Assembly (NCBI RefSeq): GCF_004122095.1
Contig: NZ_SAWZ01000006.1
Coordinates: forward strand, 124,001 to 188,000
Reading direction: 5' to 3'
Length of the DNA stretch: 64,000 nucleotides
From: Pseudoxanthomonas composti
GTDB lineage: Bacteria > Pseudomonadota > Gammaproteobacteria > Xanthomonadales > Xanthomonadaceae
Below, in pieces: positions 7,210-44,208 of the stretch. The notes beneath the pieces were generated by a model. That model saw only the letters and a list, made by a program, of their open reading frames with translations. It had not been told where the DNA came from and did no database searches. How positions within the stretch are numbered: the first letter of the stretch is position 1; each line of letters opens with the position of its first letter. The position numbers and the translations under genes were made by a program.

Positions 7210-8967
7210 ATGCGTACCCACTTCTGCGGCCTGGTCGATGAGACCCTGATCGGCCAAACCGTCACCCTGGCCGGCTGGACCGACGTGGCCCGCAACCAGG
7301 GCGGCGTGTGCTTCATCGACCTGCGCGACCACGAGGGCATCGTGCAGGTCACCGTCGAGCTGGACAACGCCGAGGTGTTCAAGACCGCCGCCTCGCTGGG
7401 CTATGAGGACGTGCTGCAGGTCCAGGGCGTGGTGCGCGCGCGCCATGCCGTCAACGACAAGCTCAAGACCGGCAAGGTCGAGGTGATCGCCAACGCCATC
7501 ACCGTGCTCAACAAGGCCGCGCCGCTGCCGTTCCATGCCCATGAGAACCCGGGCGAGGAAACCCGCCTGAAGTACCGCTACCTGGATCTGCGCCGCCCGG
7601 AGATGCAGCGCATGCAGCGCACCCGCATCAAGCTGGTGCAGGCCCTGCGCCGCCATCTGGATGCGCGCGGCTTTCAGGACATCGAGACCCCCATCCTGAC
7701 CAAGGCCACCCCGGAAGGCGCGCGCGACTTCCTGGTGCCGGCGCGCATGCATCCGGGCGAGTTCTATGCCCTGCCGCAGAGCCCGCAGCTGTTCAAGCAG
7801 ATCCTGATGGTGGCCGGCTTCGACCGCTATTACCAGATCGCGCGCTGCTTCCGCGACGAGGCCCTGCGCGCCGACCGCCAGCTGGAGTTCACCCAGCTGG
7901 ACATGGAGTTCGCCTTCGTGCGCGAGCGCGACGTGCAGGATTTCGTCGAGGAGATGATCCGCGCGATCTTCAAGGAAGTGGTCGATGTCGACCTGGCCGC
8001 GCAGTTCCCGCGCATGACCTGGGCCGAGGCGATGCGTCGCTACGGCTCGGACAAGCCGGACCTGCGCATCGACCTGGAGCTGGTGGACGTGGCCGAGCTG
8101 GTCAAGGACAGCGAGTTTTCCGTGTTCACCGGCCCGGCCAACGATGCCGATGGCCGCGTGGCCGCCTTGCGCATCCCCGGCGGGGCCACGCTGTCGCGCA
8201 AGCAGATCGACGAGTACGCCGCGCACGCGGCCAAGTACGGCAGCAAGGGCCTGGCCTACATCAAGATCGCCGAAACCGGCGAGGTCACCTCGCCGATCGC
8301 CAAGTTCTTTGCGCAGGACGCGTTCGCCGCGCTGATCGCGCACGTCGGCGCCGGCAACGGCGACCTGGTGTTCTTCGGTGCCGGGGCCTACAACAAGGTC
8401 AGCGACTTCATGGGTGCGGTGCGGCTGAAGGCCGGCAAGGACTTCGGCCTGGTCAAGGAGGGCTGGGCGCCGCTGTGGGTCACCGACTTCCCGATGTTTG
8501 AATGGGACGATGAGGAGCAGCGCTACGTCGCCCTGCATCACCCCTTCACCGCGCCGGCCGTGGATTCGATCGACGACCTGCGCGCGCACGCCAAGACCGC
8601 GGTCTCGCGCGGCTATGACATGGTGCTCAACGGCAACGAGATCGGCGGTGGTTCGATCCGTATCCATCGCCCGGAAATGCAGAGCGCGGTGTTCGAACTG
8701 CTGGGCATTGGCGCAGAGGAAGCGCGCGCCAAGTTCGGCTTCCTGCTGGACGCGCTCAACTACGGCGCGCCGCCGCACGGCGGCATTGCCTTCGGTATCG
8801 ACCGCATTGCCGCGCTGATGGCCGGCACCGAGTCCATTCGCGATGTCATTCCCTTCCCCAAGACCACCGGCGCGCAGTGTCTGATGACCGACGCGCCCTC
8901 GCCGATCCCGGATGCGCAGCTGGCCGAAGTGCATATCCAGGTGCGCGAGAAGAGGAACGAGGGATGA
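7210..8967 (+). CDS. aspS: Aspartyl-tRNA synthetase
   Basis: 585 residues, charging tRNA-Asp with aspartate in the cytoplasm. It begins MRTHFCG with an OB-fold anticodon-binding domain, followed by the class II catalytic core: FRDE...[14 protein letters not shown] is motif 2 and [15 protein letters not shown] is motif 3; the bacterial GAD insertion lies between. In the OB fold, position 30 is Gln (RNQGG), where E. coli has Leu and the non-discriminating Pseudomonas enzyme has His. The last residues (KRNEG) and the stop codon are encoded by the left arm of a heptad-repeat hairpin, so the native C-terminus has been replaced by repeat sequence. Confidence 0.97.
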
Positions 8968-9057
8968 GGAACGAGGAACGAGTGGAAATGCATCCGCCAA
9001 ATCCAGCCATGGCGCAGTTCTTCACTCGTTCCTCGTTCCTCTCCACTCGTTCCTAGC
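8951..9057. repeat. Heptad hairpin element 1 (aspS 3' end)
   Basis: The left arm is about five 7-bp units (AACGAGG, GATGAGG, AACGAGG, AACGAGT) beginning inside aspS. The right arm from 9022 is the reverse complement in units of TTCACTC, GTTCCTC, GTTCCTC, TCCACTC, GTTCCTA. A perfect 19-bp inverted repeat pairs 8966-8984 with 9023-9041. The loop is 38 nt and starts GAAATGCATCCGCC. The element may also act as the transcript end of aspS. Confidence 0.9.
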
Positions 9058-9081
9058 ACCCAACAACAGGACAACCAAGAA

Positions 9082-11885: not shown

Positions 11886-11900
11886 TGAACAGCGTGGAAG

Positions 11901-12016
11901 GCCGGGACCGGGGACCGGGGACCGGGGACCGGGGAAAAGCAGATGCCCGCGCGCGGAAACCCGGTGCAGAAGGCGCCGCTTTCCCGGGTCCCTGGTCCCC
12001 GGTCCCCGGTCCCGGC
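11901..12016. repeat. Heptad hairpin element 2 (ruvC-ruvA), G-quadruplex-capable
   Basis: Left arm 11901-11936 consists of ACCGGGG units in tandem; right arm 11981-12016 is their complement, 34 of 36 positions pairing. The loop is 44 nt and starts AAAAGCAGATGCCC. The left arm also has four G-runs separated by ACC, a textbook G-quadruplex pattern. It fills nearly all of the ruvC-ruvA gap. Confidence 0.92.
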
Positions 12017-12033
12017 TCTACCGGAGCCCTCGC

Positions 12034-38717: not shown

Positions 38718-41132
38718 GTGCCCCGAAAAGACTACGACGACGACACGTTCGACGAAGACGACGATGACAACGACGCGCAAAGCGCCTCGCGCAGCTGGCG
38801 TTCGCGACTGATCACGGCAGCGCTGGCCCTGGTGGGTTTGGGGCTGGGGTTCATGATTCCCTACGTGGCCTACCTCAACCATGAGGTGGGCGAGCGCTTC
38901 GGGGCGTTGCGCTGGCAGCTGCCGACCCGGGTCTATGCCCGTCCCCTGGACCTGGCGCCGGACGTGGCGATGGACGCGGCCACGCTCAAGACCGAGCTGG
39001 ATGCGGCGTCCTACCGCGAGGACGAGCACGCCACCCTGCCGGGCACGTATCACCGCGAAGGCAGTCGCTATCTCATCTCCAGCCGTGGCTTCACCGACGT
39101 AGGTGGGGTCATCGCGCCCTCGCGCATCCAGGTCAGCCTGTCCGGCGGGCGTGTGGTGGCGGTGCGCGACCTGGTCCGTAACCGGCCGCTCAAGCAGGCG
39201 CGCCTGGACCCGGCGCGGATCGCCACGCTCTACGGCCAGAAGCAGGAAGAACGCCGGCTGGTGCGCCTGGAAGACGTGCCCGAGCTGCTGGTGACCGGCC
39301 TGCAGTCGGTGGAAGACCAGGATTTCGGCAGCCACATCGGCATCGATCCGGCCGGCATGGCGCGCGCCCTGTGGGAGTTCGTCAGCAGCGGCGGCAAGGT
39401 CAAGCAGGGCGCCAGCACGCTGACCCAGCAGCTGGCGCGCAGCGGGCTGCTGGGCATCGGCAAGGAACAGACCCCGGCCCGCAAGTTCAACGAGATCCTC
39501 TACGCGTTGATCCTGGAGGCGCGCTACGACAAGCGCACCATCCTGGAGGCGTATTTCAACCAGGTGTTCTGGGGCCAGCGCGGCAACCAGGCTATTCACG
39601 GCATCGCCGCGGCCTCCGAGTTCTGGTTCGGGCGCGATCTCAACAGCCTGACCACCGAGCAGATCGCCTTGCTGATCGGCATCGTCAAGGGGCCTTCGTA
39701 CTACGACCCGCGGCGCTGGCCCGAGCGCGCGCTGGACCGACGCAACCTGGCGCTGCGGCGCATGCACGAGGCCGGGCTGATCGATGCGGCCGAGTTCAAG
39801 CGCGCCCTGGCCGCCCCGCTGGGGGTGCCGCGCGAGCCCGGGCTGGTGGCCGCTAACCGCTTCCCGGCCTATGTGGACCTGGTCCGCCGCCAGCTGGCGC
39901 GCGACTACCCGGAAAGCGCGCTGCAGGGCGCAGGCCTGAGCGTGATGACCGGCATGTCGCCCTCGGCGCAGGCCTATGCCGAAGGCGCGGTCACGCGCAC
40001 GATCAAGGCGCTGGAGAACAAGCGGCGCCCGCCGCTGCAGGCCGGGCTGGTGCTGACCGACGTGCACAACGGCGACGTGCTGGCGGTGGTCGGCGACCGC
40101 AACGTCTCGGCGCAGGGCTTCAACCGCGCGGTGGAAGCGGCGCGTCCGGTCGGCTCGTTGCTCAAGCCCTTCGTCTACCTGTTGGCGTTGGCCCAGCCTG
40201 ACAAGAATTCGCTGGCCACCTGGGTCGACGATTCGCCGGTGACCGTGCAGCTTGGCCGTGGCAAGCGCTGGAGCCCGGGCAACTCGGACAACCGCAGCCA
40301 CGGCACCGTGCGACTGATCGATGCGCTGGCCCATTCCTACAACCAGGCCACCGTGCGCGTGGGCATGCAGGTCGATCCCAAGCGCATCGCCCAGTTGATC
40401 AAGGTGCTGGCCGGCATCCAGGCCGATCCCAACCCGGCGCTGATCCTGGGTTCGACCGACCAGAGCCCGTACGCGATGGCCCAGCTGTACCAGTTCCTTG
40501 CCTCTGGCGGCGAGATCCAGCCGCTGCATGCCGTGCGCGGCGTGATCGATCCGCAGGGTAAGGTGCTCAAGCGTTACGACACCGCGCCGGCCGATGCGCA
40601 GGAGGGCGATTCGGTGGCCGCGCATCTGGTCAGCGTGGCCATGCAGCGCGTGGTCACCGAGGGCACCGCACGCTCGCTGCTCAGCAGCGGGCTGGGCCGG
40701 CTGTCGCCGGCGGGCAAGACCGGCACCAGCAACGATGGTCGCGACAGCTGGTTCGCCGGTTTCACCGGCGATCACCTGGCCGTGGTGTGGATGGGCAACG
40801 ACCAGAACGAGCAGACCGGCCTGTACGGCGCCACCGGCGCGATGCGGGTGTGGTCGGGCATCTTCACGCGACTTCCCAGCGCGCCGTTGAAAGTGTCGGA
40901 CAAGGGCATGGACTGGCAGTGGGTGGTGGGCGACAACGCCACCGACGCCACCTGCGCCGGCGCCCGGCAGTTTCCGTTCGTGGCCGGCTACGCCCCGGCC
41001 TACAGCGCCTGCGTCGCCGAACCGCCGGCGCAAGAGGACAGTGGTGGTGGCTGGCGCAGCTGGTTCGGCCTGCCGCCGAAGAAGGACGACACCGAGCAGA
41101 GTGCTGCCGGATCCGCACAGGAGACACCGTAA
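38718..41132 (+). CDS. mrcB: Penicillin-binding protein 1B (bifunctional transglycosylase/transpeptidase)
   Basis: 804 residues, GTG start. An acidic cytoplasmic tail (DDDTFDEDDDDND), one membrane helix (about 34-55), a UB2H-like regulatory domain, the GT51 transglycosylase (EDQDFGSHIGID, catalytic Glu199; GASTLTQQLARS; ARKFNEILYALILE) and the penicillin-binding transpeptidase with Ser480 in GSLLKPF, SYN in HSYNQATV and KTGTS at 667. It polymerises and crosslinks septal peptidoglycan, regulated by LpoB and CpoB in E. coli. Its stop overlaps the start of the next gene by one base. Confidence 0.96.
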   Translation: MPRKDYDDDTFDEDDDDNDAQSASRSWRSRLITAALALVGLGLGFMIPYVAYLNHEVGERFGALRWQLPTRVYARPLDLAPDVAMDAATLKTELDAASYREDEHATLPGTYHREGSRYLISSRGFTDVGGVIAPSRIQVSLSGGRVVAVRDLVRNRPLKQARLDPARIATLYGQKQEERRLVRLEDVPELLVTGLQSVEDQDFGSHIGIDPAGMARALWEFVSSGGKVKQGASTLTQQLARSGLLGIGKEQTPARKFNEILYALILEARYDKRTILEAYFNQVFWGQRGNQAIHGIAAASEFWFGRDLNSLTTEQIALLIGIVKGPSYYDPRRWPERALDRRNLALRRMHEAGLIDAAEFKRALAAPLGVPREPGLVAANRFPAYVDLVRRQLARDYPESALQGAGLSVMTGMSPSAQAYAEGAVTRTIKALENKRRPPLQAGLVLTDVHNGDVLAVVGDRNVSAQGFNRAVEAARPVGSLLKPFVYLLALAQPDKNSLATWVDDSPVTVQLGRGKRWSPGNSDNRSHGTVRLIDALAHSYNQATVRVGMQVDPKRIAQLIKVLAGIQADPNPALILGSTDQSPYAMAQLYQFLASGGEIQPLHAVRGVIDPQGKVLKRYDTAPADAQEGDSVAAHLVSVAMQRVVTEGTARSLLSSGLGRLSPAGKTGTSNDGRDSWFAGFTGDHLAVVWMGNDQNEQTGLYGATGAMRVWSGIFTRLPSAPLKVSDKGMDWQWVVGDNATDATCAGARQFPFVAGYAPAYSACVAEPPAQEDSGGGWRSWFGLPPKKDDTEQSAAGSAQETP

Positions 41133-41659
41133 TGCGTCATACCCGCCTGACCCTGACCGCGCTGGCGTTCACCCTGGCGTTGTCGGCCTGCGTCACCGCG
41201 CCGCCGCAGCCGCCTGCGCCGGCCAAGCCGCAGGTCAGCCCGCAGGCGCGCCTGGAGGCGGTGAAAGCGGCCGGGCAGGGCAGCGATGAGCGCGAGCTCA
41301 ACGTGCAGCCGCTGCGTGACCCTCAGGTCGAAGACCTGCGCGAGACGGCAGCGAACGCGCTGGCCAAGAACGACGCCAAGGCCGCCGCGCAGGTGCTGGA
41401 CCAGGCCCTGGAGATCACGCCGGAAGACCCGGCCGTGCTGCAGGAACGCGCCGAGGTCGCGCTGCTGCTGGCCGATGACGCCCAGGCCGAGGCCTTCGCG
41501 CACAAGGCGATCCAGCTCGGCTCCAAGACCGGCCCGCTGTGCCGCCGCCACTGGGCCACCATCTGGCAGGCCCGCCTGGCCCGTGGCGACGAGGCCAACG
41601 CCGCCTCGGCGCAGACGCAGATCCAAAGCTGCACGGTGGCGGGGTTGAATCGGTACTAA
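41132..41659 (+). CDS. TPR-containing outer-membrane lipoprotein next to PBP1B
   Basis: 175 residues. Lipobox LSAC with Cys20, Pro/Ala linker, then helical TPR-like repeats (AANALAKNDAKAAAQVLDQALEITPEDPAVLQERAEVALLLADDAQAEAFAHKAIQLG). Overlapping mrcB (TAATG), it is probably co-translated and could be a PBP1B partner, as LpoB is in E. coli, though it is not LpoB by sequence. The last ~45 bp of the gene are copied in the tandem units that follow. Confidence 0.85.
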   Translation: MRHTRLTLTALAFTLALSACVTAPPQPPAPAKPQVSPQARLEAVKAAGQGSDERELNVQPLRDPQVEDLRETAANALAKNDAKAAAQVLDQALEITPEDPAVLQERAEVALLLADDAQAEAFAHKAIQLGSKTGPLCRRHWATIWQARLARGDEANAASAQTQIQSCTVAGLNRY

Positions 41660-41661
41660 GG

Positions 41662-41757
41662 GGCAGGAACGAGGAACGAGTGATGAGGAACGAGTGAAAG
41701 CGATGAACCCCGCTTTCACTCTTTCCTCGTTCCTCCAAACTCTTTCCTCGCTCTTAA
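41662..41757. repeat. Heptad hairpin element 5a
   Basis: Left arm units AACGAGG, AACGAGT, GATGAGG, AACGAGT; right arm units TTCACTC, TTTCCTC, GTTCCTC, CAAACTC, TTTCCTC. The stem continues into the loop as GTGAAAGCG/CGCTTTCAC around ATGAACCC. It begins directly after the lipoprotein stop. Confidence 0.88.
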
Positions 41758-41888
41758 AGTGGCACGTATCCCACTTCGTCTATGCCAGCCGACGAGCCCT
41801 TAGCGGGAGCTGGGCGCTGGCCGACGGGTCAACGCCTCCTCAGATCCAAAGCGACACGATGGCGGGTTTGAATCGCTGTTGGGGATGA
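41694..41888 (+). pseudogene. Chimeric remnant, yoaA start joined to lipoprotein end (copy 1)
   Basis: An open frame of 64 codons through the first 210-bp unit. HFVYASRRALSGSWALAD echoes the YoaA N-terminus (LAYASRQALSEGGALAD), and PQIQSDTMAGLNR echoes the lipoprotein C-terminus (QIQSCTVAGLNR), both in their native frames. Most likely a by-product of the duplication, not a functional gene. Confidence 0.6.
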
Positions 41889-41967
41889 GGAACAAGGAAC
41901 GAGTGGAAAGCAGTGAACCCCACTTTCACTCGTTCCTCGTTCCTCCAAACTCTTTCCTCGCTCTTAA
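41882..41967. repeat. Heptad hairpin element 5b
   Basis: Second copy: left arm GATGAGG, AACAAGG, AACGAGT then GGAAAGC; right arm TTCACTC, GTTCCTC, GTTCCTC, CAAACTC, TTTCCTC. Confidence 0.88.
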
Positions 41968-42098
41968 AGTGGCACGTATCCCACTTCGTCTATGCCAGCC
42001 GACGAGCCCTTAGCGGGAGCTGGGCGCTGGCCGACGGGTCAACGCCTCCTCAGATCCAAAGCGACACGATGGCGGGTTTGAATCGCTGTTGGGGATGA
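41913..42098 (+). pseudogene. Chimeric remnant, yoaA start joined to lipoprotein end (copy 2)
   Basis: Same chimeric frame in the second unit, 61 codons. From the shared segment onward the peptide is identical to copy 1. Confidence 0.6.
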
Positions 42099-42177
42099 GG
42101 AACAAGGAACGAGTGGAAAGCAGTGAACTCCGCTTTTACTCGTTCCTCGTTCCTCTTAACTCGTTCCTCGCTCTTAC
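42092..42177. repeat. Heptad hairpin element 5c, before yoaA
   Basis: Third copy, ending 9 bp before the yoaA ATG. The left arm equals 5b. The right arm (TTTTACTC, GTTCCTC, GTTCCTC, TTAACTC, GTTCCTC) differs at several bases from 5a and 5b. Confidence 0.88.
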
Positions 42178-42186
42178 AATGCCCCC

Positions 42187-44208
42187 ATGTCCCGCCTCGC
42201 CTACGCCAGCCGACAAGCCCTGAGCGAGGGTGGGGCGCTGGCCGACCAGCTCGATGCCTTTGTCCCGCGCGCGGCGCAGCAGCACCTGGCCGAGGCGGTC
42301 GCAGATTGCCTGGAGTCGCGCGAAGTGCTGCTGGCCGAGGCAGGCACCGGCACCGGCAAGACCTTCGCCTATCTGGTGCCGGCGCTGCTGTCGGGCCTGA
42401 AGACCATCATCTCCACCGGCACCCGCGCGCTGCAGGACCAGCTGTATCACCGCGACCTGCCGCGCGTGCGCAAGGCCCTGGGCGTGGGACATTCCTCGGC
42501 CCTGCTCAAGGGGCGCGCCAACTACCTGTGCCGCTACCGCCTGGAGCAGGCCCGCGGCGAGCCGCAGTTCACCACGCGCGAGCAGGCCGGCCAGTTCCAG
42601 CGCATCGTGGCCTGGGGCGGGCGCACGCAGTACGGCGACATGGCCGAGCTGTCCTTCCTGCAGGAGGATTCGCCGCTGCTGCCGCGGGTGACCTCCACCG
42701 TGGATAACTGCCTGGGCAACGAGTGCCCGTTCTGGGCCGAATGCTTCGTGGTGCAGGCCCGGCAACGGGCGCAGGCGGCCGACGTGGTGGTGGTCAACCA
42801 CCATCTGCTGCTGGCCGACCTGGCCCTGAAGCAGGAAGGCTTCGGCGAGATCCTGCCCGGGGCGCAAGCCTTCGTGATCGACGAGGCCCACCAGTTGCCC
42901 GAGCTGGCCGCCAACTTCTTCGGCGAGGGTTTCGGCATGCGCCCGCTGCAGGAGCTTGCGCGCGATGTGATGGAAGAGGCCCGCCACATCGCCGGCGGCC
43001 AGGCGACGCTGCAGGGCCCGGCCAGCGAGCTGGAGCAGGCCCTGCGCGACCTGCGCGCGGCGATGGAGGGCCTGCCCGCGCGCGGCACCCAGGACCGCGC
43101 CCTGGCGCAGGCGCCGGTGCGGCATGGCTTTGAGACCCTCATCGCGGCAATGGCCGGCCTGGCCGAGCCGCTGGCGAGCCTGGCCGATGCTTCGGTGGGC
43201 ATGGACGCCTGCGCCGCGCGCCTGACCGAGTTCAGCGCGCGCCTGCTGCGCTGGCTGGGCGAGGATCAACCACTGCCGGATTTCGACGCCGAGCCGACCC
43301 CGGCCCCGCCGGACACCGACGTGGTCTGGTACGAGCTGACCCCGCGCGGCTTCCGCTGCCAGCGCACGCCGATGGATGTATCCGGCCCGCTGCGCGAGCA
43401 CCGGCAGAAATCGCAGGCGGCCTGGGTGTTCACTTCGGCCACCCTGGCCGTCGGCCAGGGCTTTGACCACATCGCCCAGCGCCTGGGCCTGGACGACCCG
43501 CAGATCCTGCTGCAGCCCAGCCCCTTCGACTGGCCACGGCAGGCGCTGTGCTATCTGCCCACCGGCCTGCCGGACCCGAACGCGCGGGGCTTCGGCACCG
43601 CCCTGATCGCCGCGATCTACCCGGTGCTGCAGGCCTCACAGGGCCGCGCCTTCCTGCTGTTCGCCTCGCACCGCGCCCTGCGCGAGGCCGCCGAGACCCT
43701 GCGCGATGCGCCCTGGCCGCTGTTCGTGCAGGGCGAGGCGCCGCGCGCCACGCTGCTGCAGCGCTTCCGCGAGTCCGGCAACGGCGTGCTGCTGGGCTCG
43801 GCCTCGTTCCGCGAGGGCGTGGATGTGGCCGGCGATGCGCTGAGCGTGGTGGTCATCGACAAGCTGCCCTTCGCCGCGCCGGACGACCCGGTGTTCGAGG
43901 CGCGCCTGGAGGCGATCCGCCGCAGCGGCGGCAACCCTTTCCGCGACGAACAGCTGCCGCAGGCGGTGATCGCGCTCAAGCAGGGCGTGGGCCGGCTGAT
44001 CCGCAGCGAGACCGATCGCGGCGTGCTGGTGTTGTGCGACCCGCGCCTGACCGGCAAATCCTACGGCCGGCTGTTCCTGGACTCGCTACCGCCGTTTGCC
44101 CGCACCCGCCAGGTGCAGGACGTGCAGCGCTTCTTCGGGGTCGAACCCCAGGCCGATGCCGTCGCACCCGACCCGCTACTGGATGCCTATGAAACTGCTC
44201 GCTTTTGA
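42187..44208 (+). CDS. yoaA: DinG-family ATP-dependent DNA helicase YoaA
   Basis: 673 residues, an XPD-like iron-sulfur helicase. Walker A AGTGTGKT is at about 53-60, DEAH at 232-235. The 4Fe-4S cysteines are Cys115, Cys175, Cys180 and Cys186 in the XPD spacing. Later motifs are WVFTSATLAVG, FLLFASHRALR, LGSASFREGVDVAG and QGVGRLIRSETDRG. The family name YoaA rather than DinG is chosen because tsaB follows directly, as in E. coli. YoaA works with the HolC clamp-loader subunit in fork repair there. Confidence 0.93.
   Translation: MSRLAYASRQALSEGGALADQLDAFVPRAAQQHLAEAVADCLESREVLLAEAGTGTGKTFAYLVPALLSGLKTIISTGTRALQDQLYHRDLPRVRKALGVGHSSALLKGRANYLCRYRLEQARGEPQFTTREQAGQFQRIVAWGGRTQYGDMAELSFLQEDSPLLPRVTSTVDNCLGNECPFWAECFVVQARQRAQAADVVVVNHHLLLADLALKQEGFGEILPGAQAFVIDEAHQLPELAANFFGEGFGMRPLQELARDVMEEARHIAGGQATLQGPASELEQALRDLRAAMEGLPARGTQDRALAQAPVRHGFETLIAAMAGLAEPLASLADASVGMDACAARLTEFSARLLRWLGEDQPLPDFDAEPTPAPPDTDVVWYELTPRGFRCQRTPMDVSGPLREHRQKSQAAWVFTSATLAVGQGFDHIAQRLGLDDPQILLQPSPFDWPRQALCYLPTGLPDPNARGFGTALIAAIYPVLQASQGRAFLLFASHRALREAAETLRDAPWPLFVQGEAPRATLLQRFRESGNGVLLGSASFREGVDVAGDALSVVVIDKLPFAAPDDPVFEARLEAIRRSGGNPFRDEQLPQAVIALKQGVGRLIRSETDRGVLVLCDPRLTGKSYGRLFLDSLPPFARTRQVQDVQRFFGVEPQADAVAPDPLLDAYETARF

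Follow-up and report, generated by a model that had tools for sequence, protein, structure and literature searches.

The gap between a lipoprotein-like gene and yoaA in Pseudoxanthomonas composti is 527 bp long, compared with 2-277 bp at 18 named Pseudoxanthomonas loci (a 19th, L118, has no lipoprotein match), and it contains pieces of both neighboring genes repeated together with a hairpin. How did such an array arise? In our opinion, the best explanation as a whole, and a probable one, is that a hairpin came to lie in the gap, that it was duplicated there along with the ends of both adjoining genes, that the copied gene ends decayed, and that a 210-bp block was recently re-copied. The locus was analyzed within a 64-kb stretch of DNA, referred to here as the window, from a genome of 4.33 Mb assembled in 24 contigs.

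In the window, the gene for PBP1B (38718-41132) is followed by the gene for a lipoprotein-like protein of 175 amino acids and then by yoaA (Table 1). The lipoprotein-like protein belongs to no Pfam family, and its only NCBIfam match is weak and below the cut-off. YoaA is 81% identical to its counterpart in P. wuyuanensis, a value also reached by some Xanthomonas and Stenotrophomonas proteins. The gene pair is conserved: both genes are present at 100 of the 110 loci examined, a count that includes the window and, because the collections overlap, some genomes twice, while one gene is absent from the other 10; in the 99 rows other than the window, the lipoprotein-like gene lies upstream of yoaA. 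It should be noted that a record titled Bacillus subtilis SK7B5 (L085) carries a Xanthomonadaceae-like lipoprotein-yoaA pair, with 80% identity to the YoaA of the window, and is therefore probably mislabeled or contaminated.

The original prediction described a tandem 210-bp array joining the start of yoaA to the end of the lipoprotein gene, which is confirmed by TRF, by the identity of the units over 196 bp, and by shuffle tests. TRF reports a single array at 41686-42246, with a period of 210, 2.7 copies, and 92% matches. Units 1 and 2 show unbroken identity over 196 bp (41723-41918 vs. the positions 210 further on); over the full 210 bp, they have 4 differences (at 41702, 41703, 41712, and 41722). 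The make-up of the unit could be refined: the gap holds three hairpins, H1, H2, and H3, and between them two spacers, each a copy of the same junction of a yoaA 5′ piece with a lipoprotein 3′ piece. When folded with DNA parameters, each hairpin is more stable than all of its 200 shuffles. H1 contains an extra piece in its left arm, which places that arm outside the 210-bp register.

Table 1. Positions in the window of the two genes, the hairpins, and the copied gene ends between them
Feature	Position	Strand	Basis
Lipoprotein-like gene (175 aa) with the true 3′ end from which the lipoprotein 3′ pieces derive	41132-41659	+	Translation
Hairpin H1, family member, 90.6 bits; extra piece of about 14 bp in left arm	41662-41762		R1 match C21:165662-165762; fold z -5.40; TRF 41671-41697
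Putative exchange interval of the second event, most parsimonious, in H1 coordinates (H1 loop 41703-41710)	41704-41708		Column table, fold of H1
Unit 1, decayed copy of yoaA 5′ end, lacking the start codon	41757-41825	+	Match to yoaA, shuffles
Unit 1, decayed copy of lipoprotein 3′ end, lacking the stop codon and 11 bp	41826-41883	+	Match to gene end, shuffles
Hairpin H2, junction: left side H3-like, right side H1-like	41878-41972		R1 match C21:165878-165972; column table; fold z -4.72
Unit 2, decayed copy of yoaA 5′ end	41967-42035	+	Identical to unit 1
Unit 2, decayed copy of lipoprotein 3′ end	42036-42093	+	Identical to unit 1
Hairpin H3, adjoins true yoaA start	42088-42182		R1 match C21:166088-166182; fold z -4.65
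yoaA, DNA repair helicase YoaA, true gene	42187-44208	+	NF053712, 843.6 bits vs. cut-off 680

Codons 2-20 of yoaA and the yoaA-like piece agree at 47 of 57 positions in a gapless alignment; the second-best place in the window, on either strand, reaches 32 of 57, a value that none of 60 shuffles of the unit core exceeds. Analogously, the lipoprotein-like piece matches the end of its gene at 33 of 42 positions (34 at the offset that scores best in the shuffle test), compared with 24 at the second-best place in the window on either strand and with at most 24 in 60 shuffles. The yoaA-like piece has lost its ATG through a one-base shift, and the lipoprotein-like piece lacks the stop codon and 11 bp. 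All reported elements of the array are present and far above chance.

The order of the pieces indicates how the array began. Lipoprotein end, H1, copied yoaA start, copied lipoprotein end, H3, and yoaA follow one another as a tandem duplication of the segment from lipoprotein end through hairpin to yoaA start would leave them. This order, together with matches far above those of shuffles, supports the original claim of a duplication with its endpoints in both flanking genes, and the order in itself shows that a tandem duplication took place. In the proposed course of events, a hairpin of a dispersed family would have come to sit in a short lipoprotein-yoaA gap, and a segment comprising the last approximately 70 bp of the lipoprotein gene, the hairpin, and yoaA to about its 20th codon was then duplicated. 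As to mechanism, we infer that this happened most simply by backward slippage, the replicating strand stalling at the hairpin and rejoining at a chance homology of a few bases; CTGGCC and GGCGAC/GCCGAC occur near the junction on both sides, as short matches in GC-rich DNA. The outcome was two intact genes and, between two hairpins, a useless junction of yoaA start and lipoprotein end, which subsequently decayed as non-coding DNA.

The state of the copied gene ends bears on this decay. Mismatches with the true gene ends number 10 in 57 positions for yoaA and 9 in 42 for the lipoprotein gene, i.e., 18-21%, and they are spread evenly over the first, second, and third codon positions (3, 4, and 3 in the yoaA piece; 2, 3, and 4 in the lipoprotein piece). 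When the 10 yoaA differences are polarized against 18 relatives (the named Pseudoxanthomonas loci, 19 in all, without L104), 6 fall on the side of the unit and 2 on the side of the gene, and 2 are unclear. The two changes on the gene branch indicate that the first duplication also precedes some changes in yoaA itself. The contrast between this divergence and the 4 of 210 differences between units agrees with the original reading, in which an old duplication decayed and was then re-amplified or homogenized, and the even spread over codon positions and the polarity lend the decay further support. Thus, comparison of the sequences largely supports a history in which an old tandem duplication was followed by decay, for the most part on the side of the unit, and by a much younger second duplication.

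The second event has left its trace in H2. Over the compared region (41682-41771), H2 follows H3 at all 14 differing columns left of 41704; right of 41708, it follows H1 at 14 of the 15 columns at which H1 and H3 differ, 9 of which lie in the yoaA-start piece and 6 in the hairpin. The exception, at 41722, and a single base private to H2, at 41712, each need one later change. The simplest reading of this pattern is that H1 and H3 exchanged sequence, switching at 41704-41708, inside the H1 loop. When all 29 columns were shuffled 200,000 times, so low a number of switches was reached only once, a result that depends on columns of the left arm, in which H1 and H3 do not share a register; restricted to the 17 in-register columns, the test reached it 20,125 times in 200,000. 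Moreover, the H1 loop accounts for 8 of the 66 in-register bases, and a switch point would fall there anyway with a chance of approximately 12%. For these reasons, the loop position is suggestive only. In the proposed mechanism, the two hairpins would, much later, have undergone unequal exchange or slippage that re-copied the 210-bp block and raised their number to three. The pattern within the array and its recurrence at other hairpins point to slippage at a hairpin, followed by exchange between hairpins, as the probable mechanism.

The hairpin is one member of a family dispersed over the genome, with at least 80 elements at 68 sites. These were identified with a covariance model built from 25 copies, which gave 150 hits, counted on both strands, that merge into the 80 elements; the count is a lower bound, as 150 of 1,189 first-look candidates were scored. 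A DNA search returned 104 matches in the same genome. The alignment of 25 sequences contains 29 invariant and 9 nearly invariant columns, located in the arms, which are built of GGAACGA heptamers, while the loop is variable; across the genome, arms are alike and loops differ. Four family members fold at z -4.65 to -6.88. Covariation is nearly absent, with a change on both sides in 1 of 17 pairs, which indicates that the arm sequence is the conserved feature and lends no support to selection for RNA pairing. A strict exact pattern detects the hairpins in 10 genomes among the 395 of the bacterial family, with 21 forward matches in P. composti and no more than 3 in any of the other nine, overlapping matches included. 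With the looser covariance model, five selected genomes gave from at least 25 to at least 100 hits each, counted on both strands with at most 150 candidates scored per genome. Within the window, a second, single copy of the GGAACGA family is located at 8939-9068 (C21:132939-133068), and a different heptamer-armed hairpin, in which GGGACCG is repeated about 4.6 times and followed by its reverse complement, is located at 11895-12020 (fold z -8.02).

Inverted conserved arms and a variable loop are traits that the family shares with REPINs. Mobilization as a REP by a RAYT was nevertheless rejected, since the 3.3-kb locus of the only RAYT (Y1_Tnp) gene in the genome contains none of the hairpin words searched. 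That gene, of RAYT type and single (L167; C18:352323-352646), is surrounded by KTGVRVQF and similar peptide strings repeated in several frames, which suggest a different repeat around it. Nor do the ends of the arm consensus, AGGAACGAGTG..GAGGAACGAGGAACGAGTGAAAGC and its mirror, carry a GTAG or CGTC tag such as defines tagged REPs. What the array does display are head-to-tail units of hairpin plus flanking DNA, the mark of a tandem hairpin-repeat cluster.

Is the duplication at yoaA an isolated case? Among approximately 71 family sites of the genome (68 from the model and, by our count, 3 from the DNA search alone; 69 loci), about 8 have local direct duplications that include non-arm sequence, 6 of them at 83% identity or more and 2 at 75-79%; the latter, L213 (79%) and L220 (75%), were included although weak. 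Three loci (L131, L147, and L161), in which the likeness is weak or mostly confined to the arms, were excluded, as was one row of L209, at 1,415 bp, between two separate elements. The 63 sites counted as having no duplication of this kind include L203, where two elements lie 264 bp apart. The closest parallel in anatomy is found downstream of an intact atpC (L168, 1116-1943; C24, approximately 109.6-110.4 kb), where the scar consists of a decayed second end of atpD, a hairpin, and approximately the first 31 bp of atpC. In P. wuyuanensis (L171, 2298-2673), a 106-bp unit repeated 3.5 times upstream of pbpC copies the start of that gene, whose N-terminus (MKKSRFHSFL...) is encoded by a hairpin arm; the orthologous site of another genome, G025, has the hairpin and no such array. 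G025 itself has a 102-bp unit repeated 4 times, with 4 hairpins, after nrdA (L232, 1316-1727), in which three units share the same 5 differences, over 24 bp, from the true nrdA end; here again, divergence would have preceded amplification.

A control sample of 464 kb, consisting of the window and 20 stretches of 20 kb at chosen coordinates, shows that such duplication is not special to the GGAACGA hairpin. TRF found 6 arrays with a period of at least 60 in the sample, namely the yoaA array and 5 arrays (L179, L192, L193, L195, and L196; period 73-164, up to 6.4 copies) with another palindromic motif, GTAGGGTGGA/TCCACC. Since 5 of the 6 hold this other palindrome, long-period arrays appear to go with palindromes generally rather than with the yoaA hairpin alone. 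Self-BLAST of the sample revealed further local duplications without hairpin words, some of which may be coding. The original suggestion that the hairpin drove the duplication is thus plausible, and it is strengthened by recurrence at other copies; its causal role is something that we infer from these patterns.

The junction appears to be confined to this genome. The 128-bp junction was found at E≤1e-5 in 1 of 395 genomes of the family, the one being P. composti itself, which is represented in this set by a single strain. At E≤0.01, matches of 20-26 bp occur in 4 of 60 relatives and are taken as chance. Relatives carrying the unit without likeness to the flanking genes had been named as evidence that would speak against the original prediction; the unit was found in none of the relatives searched (sets of 60 and 394, which overlap). 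Two 8-base words of the arms, searched for as words rather than with the model, are absent from the gaps of the 99 other rows with both genes, except for a single word in one row. Among relatives, such hairpin-free gaps are too diverged for a target duplication, as a mobile insertion would leave it, to be delimited by comparison. No plasmid record matched the array.

Several other explanations deserve consideration. Near-identical units would also be expected had an older array of at least two decayed units been made uniform by gene conversion, with no recent change in copy number, and the arms, being alike genome-wide while the loops differ, would be convertible between copies; re-duplication and gene conversion are in fact indistinguishable from each other on the present pattern. 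We nevertheless regard homogenization as unlikely, because it requires an older three-hairpin state, evidenced in none of the searched relatives, whereas a single re-duplication and two point changes account for all 4 differences between the units. An identical run of 196 bp in a 24-contig genome also brings to mind a second unit produced by misassembly. All three hairpins are different, however, H2 has its private base, and each decayed spacer lies between hairpins that can be told apart, which makes a simple false repeat unlikely. We judge an artefact of this kind to be very unlikely, and an undercount, through collapse of identical middle units, to be likelier than an overcount.

If the units were lipoprotein-yoaA pieces of another species, recombined in, they would differ from the resident genes from the outset, and at 2 of the 10 yoaA differences it is indeed the unit, not the resident gene, that has the commonest base of the 18 relatives. 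Yet at 6 of the 10 the unit departs from 16-18 of the 18 relatives; start and stop codons are lost; the differences are even over codon positions, whereas a foreign gene is expected to differ mostly at third positions; and the unit was detected in its own genome only. A foreign origin is disfavored by the polarity in particular and is, in our opinion, extremely unlikely. The persistence of the hairpins while the gene pieces decay might suggest, in turn, that the array is functional, with stacked hairpins acting as an attenuator or a stabilizer of mRNA, or with copied boxes from upstream of yoaA acting as extra promoters. A TACAAT box (window 42175-42186) lies 6 bp upstream of the yoaA ATG, with a TAAAGT remnant in each unit. 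These points are opposed by the lack of any match to an intrinsic terminator or a sigma-70 promoter in 41500-42400, by the near-absence of covariation, and by the occurrence of the array in one genome only, and we consider such a function quite unlikely. Boxes similar to that of yoaA (TACAAT/TATCAT) are present in several Stenotrophomonas relatives.

The GTG frames of the unit, of 61-64 amino acids, are out of keeping with either gene, and a coding role was rejected. An Rfam search of 41000-43000 gave 18 matches at E≤1 (16 microRNA families, IRES_Bip, and sR32), all far under the gathering scores and taken as chance. The array has no evident gene product; any effect it has would come from its three hairpins, as mRNA or as DNA, which widen the gap to 527 bp.

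Clusters of hairpin repeats are known from other bacteria. In Pseudomonas fluorescens SBW25, 16 tandem REPIN clusters consist of near-identical units that include flanks, the unit being a flank, a REPIN, and a shorter flank, according to the excerpts of that report used here (PMC3116915). The yoaA array resembles these clusters in its tandem hairpins, repeated as near-identical units with flanking sequence; unlike them, it has a different arm sequence and no RAYT link was seen, and its flanks are identifiable, decayed gene ends from which the order of events can be read (compared with the same excerpts of PMC3116915). REP clusters of the GTAG/CGTC families are likewise described, in the portion of the text used, as reiterated together with flanking DNA (PMC3733652), although those families bear an end tag that the present arm consensus lacks. 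Within the same bacterial family, Xanthomonas has inverted repeats of a GGGAATC heptamer, of which 70 and 75 convergent pairs are given for two genomes in the part of the account used (PMC4692102). As described there, they share with the present hairpins a convergent, heptamer-built, stem-loop-capable design, but the GGAACGA heptamer has no quadruplex-type GGG runs and its arms are interrupted; duplications of gene ends are not mentioned in those parts of PMC4692102. The main text of a 2025 survey of REPs contains no word starting with "Xanthomon" or "tandem" (PMC12306157). A limited literature search did not find the 15-base arm string; among the matches listed, it returned nothing on the hairpin family under Pseudoxanthomonas palindromic repeats and no case of a gene-end scar under tandem duplication with hairpins or palindromes. 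In view of the published REPIN and REP clusters with flanks, we file the yoaA array under tandem hairpin-repeat clusters with flanks; it is not a REPIN or a GTAG/CGTC REP proper.

The yoaA array is, then, a well-preserved and nicely resolved case of a known bacterial hairpin-repeat habit and not a new kind of element, and it leaves our knowledge of the lipoprotein gene and of yoaA themselves unchanged. Its value lies in the duplicated flanks. Because these are pieces of conserved genes, the first duplication, the decay, the second duplication, and the switch point can be read, and in part polarized, one after another, a step-by-step reading that is hard to obtain from anonymous intergenic repeats. 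The atpD/atpC, pbpC, and nrdA cases, taken together with this array, yield a testable claim on how intergenic hairpins generate duplications in compact genomes. We tentatively propose, as a possibility that may well prove too broad, that in Xanthomonadaceae, hairpins with heptamer arms generally seed tandem duplications in which the ends of both adjoining genes are copied, that these copies then decay into scars that can be dated, and that later exchanges switch strands in the loop. If this is true, gene-end scars next to intergenic hairpins could be read, across genomes, as a clock of duplication driven by hairpins.
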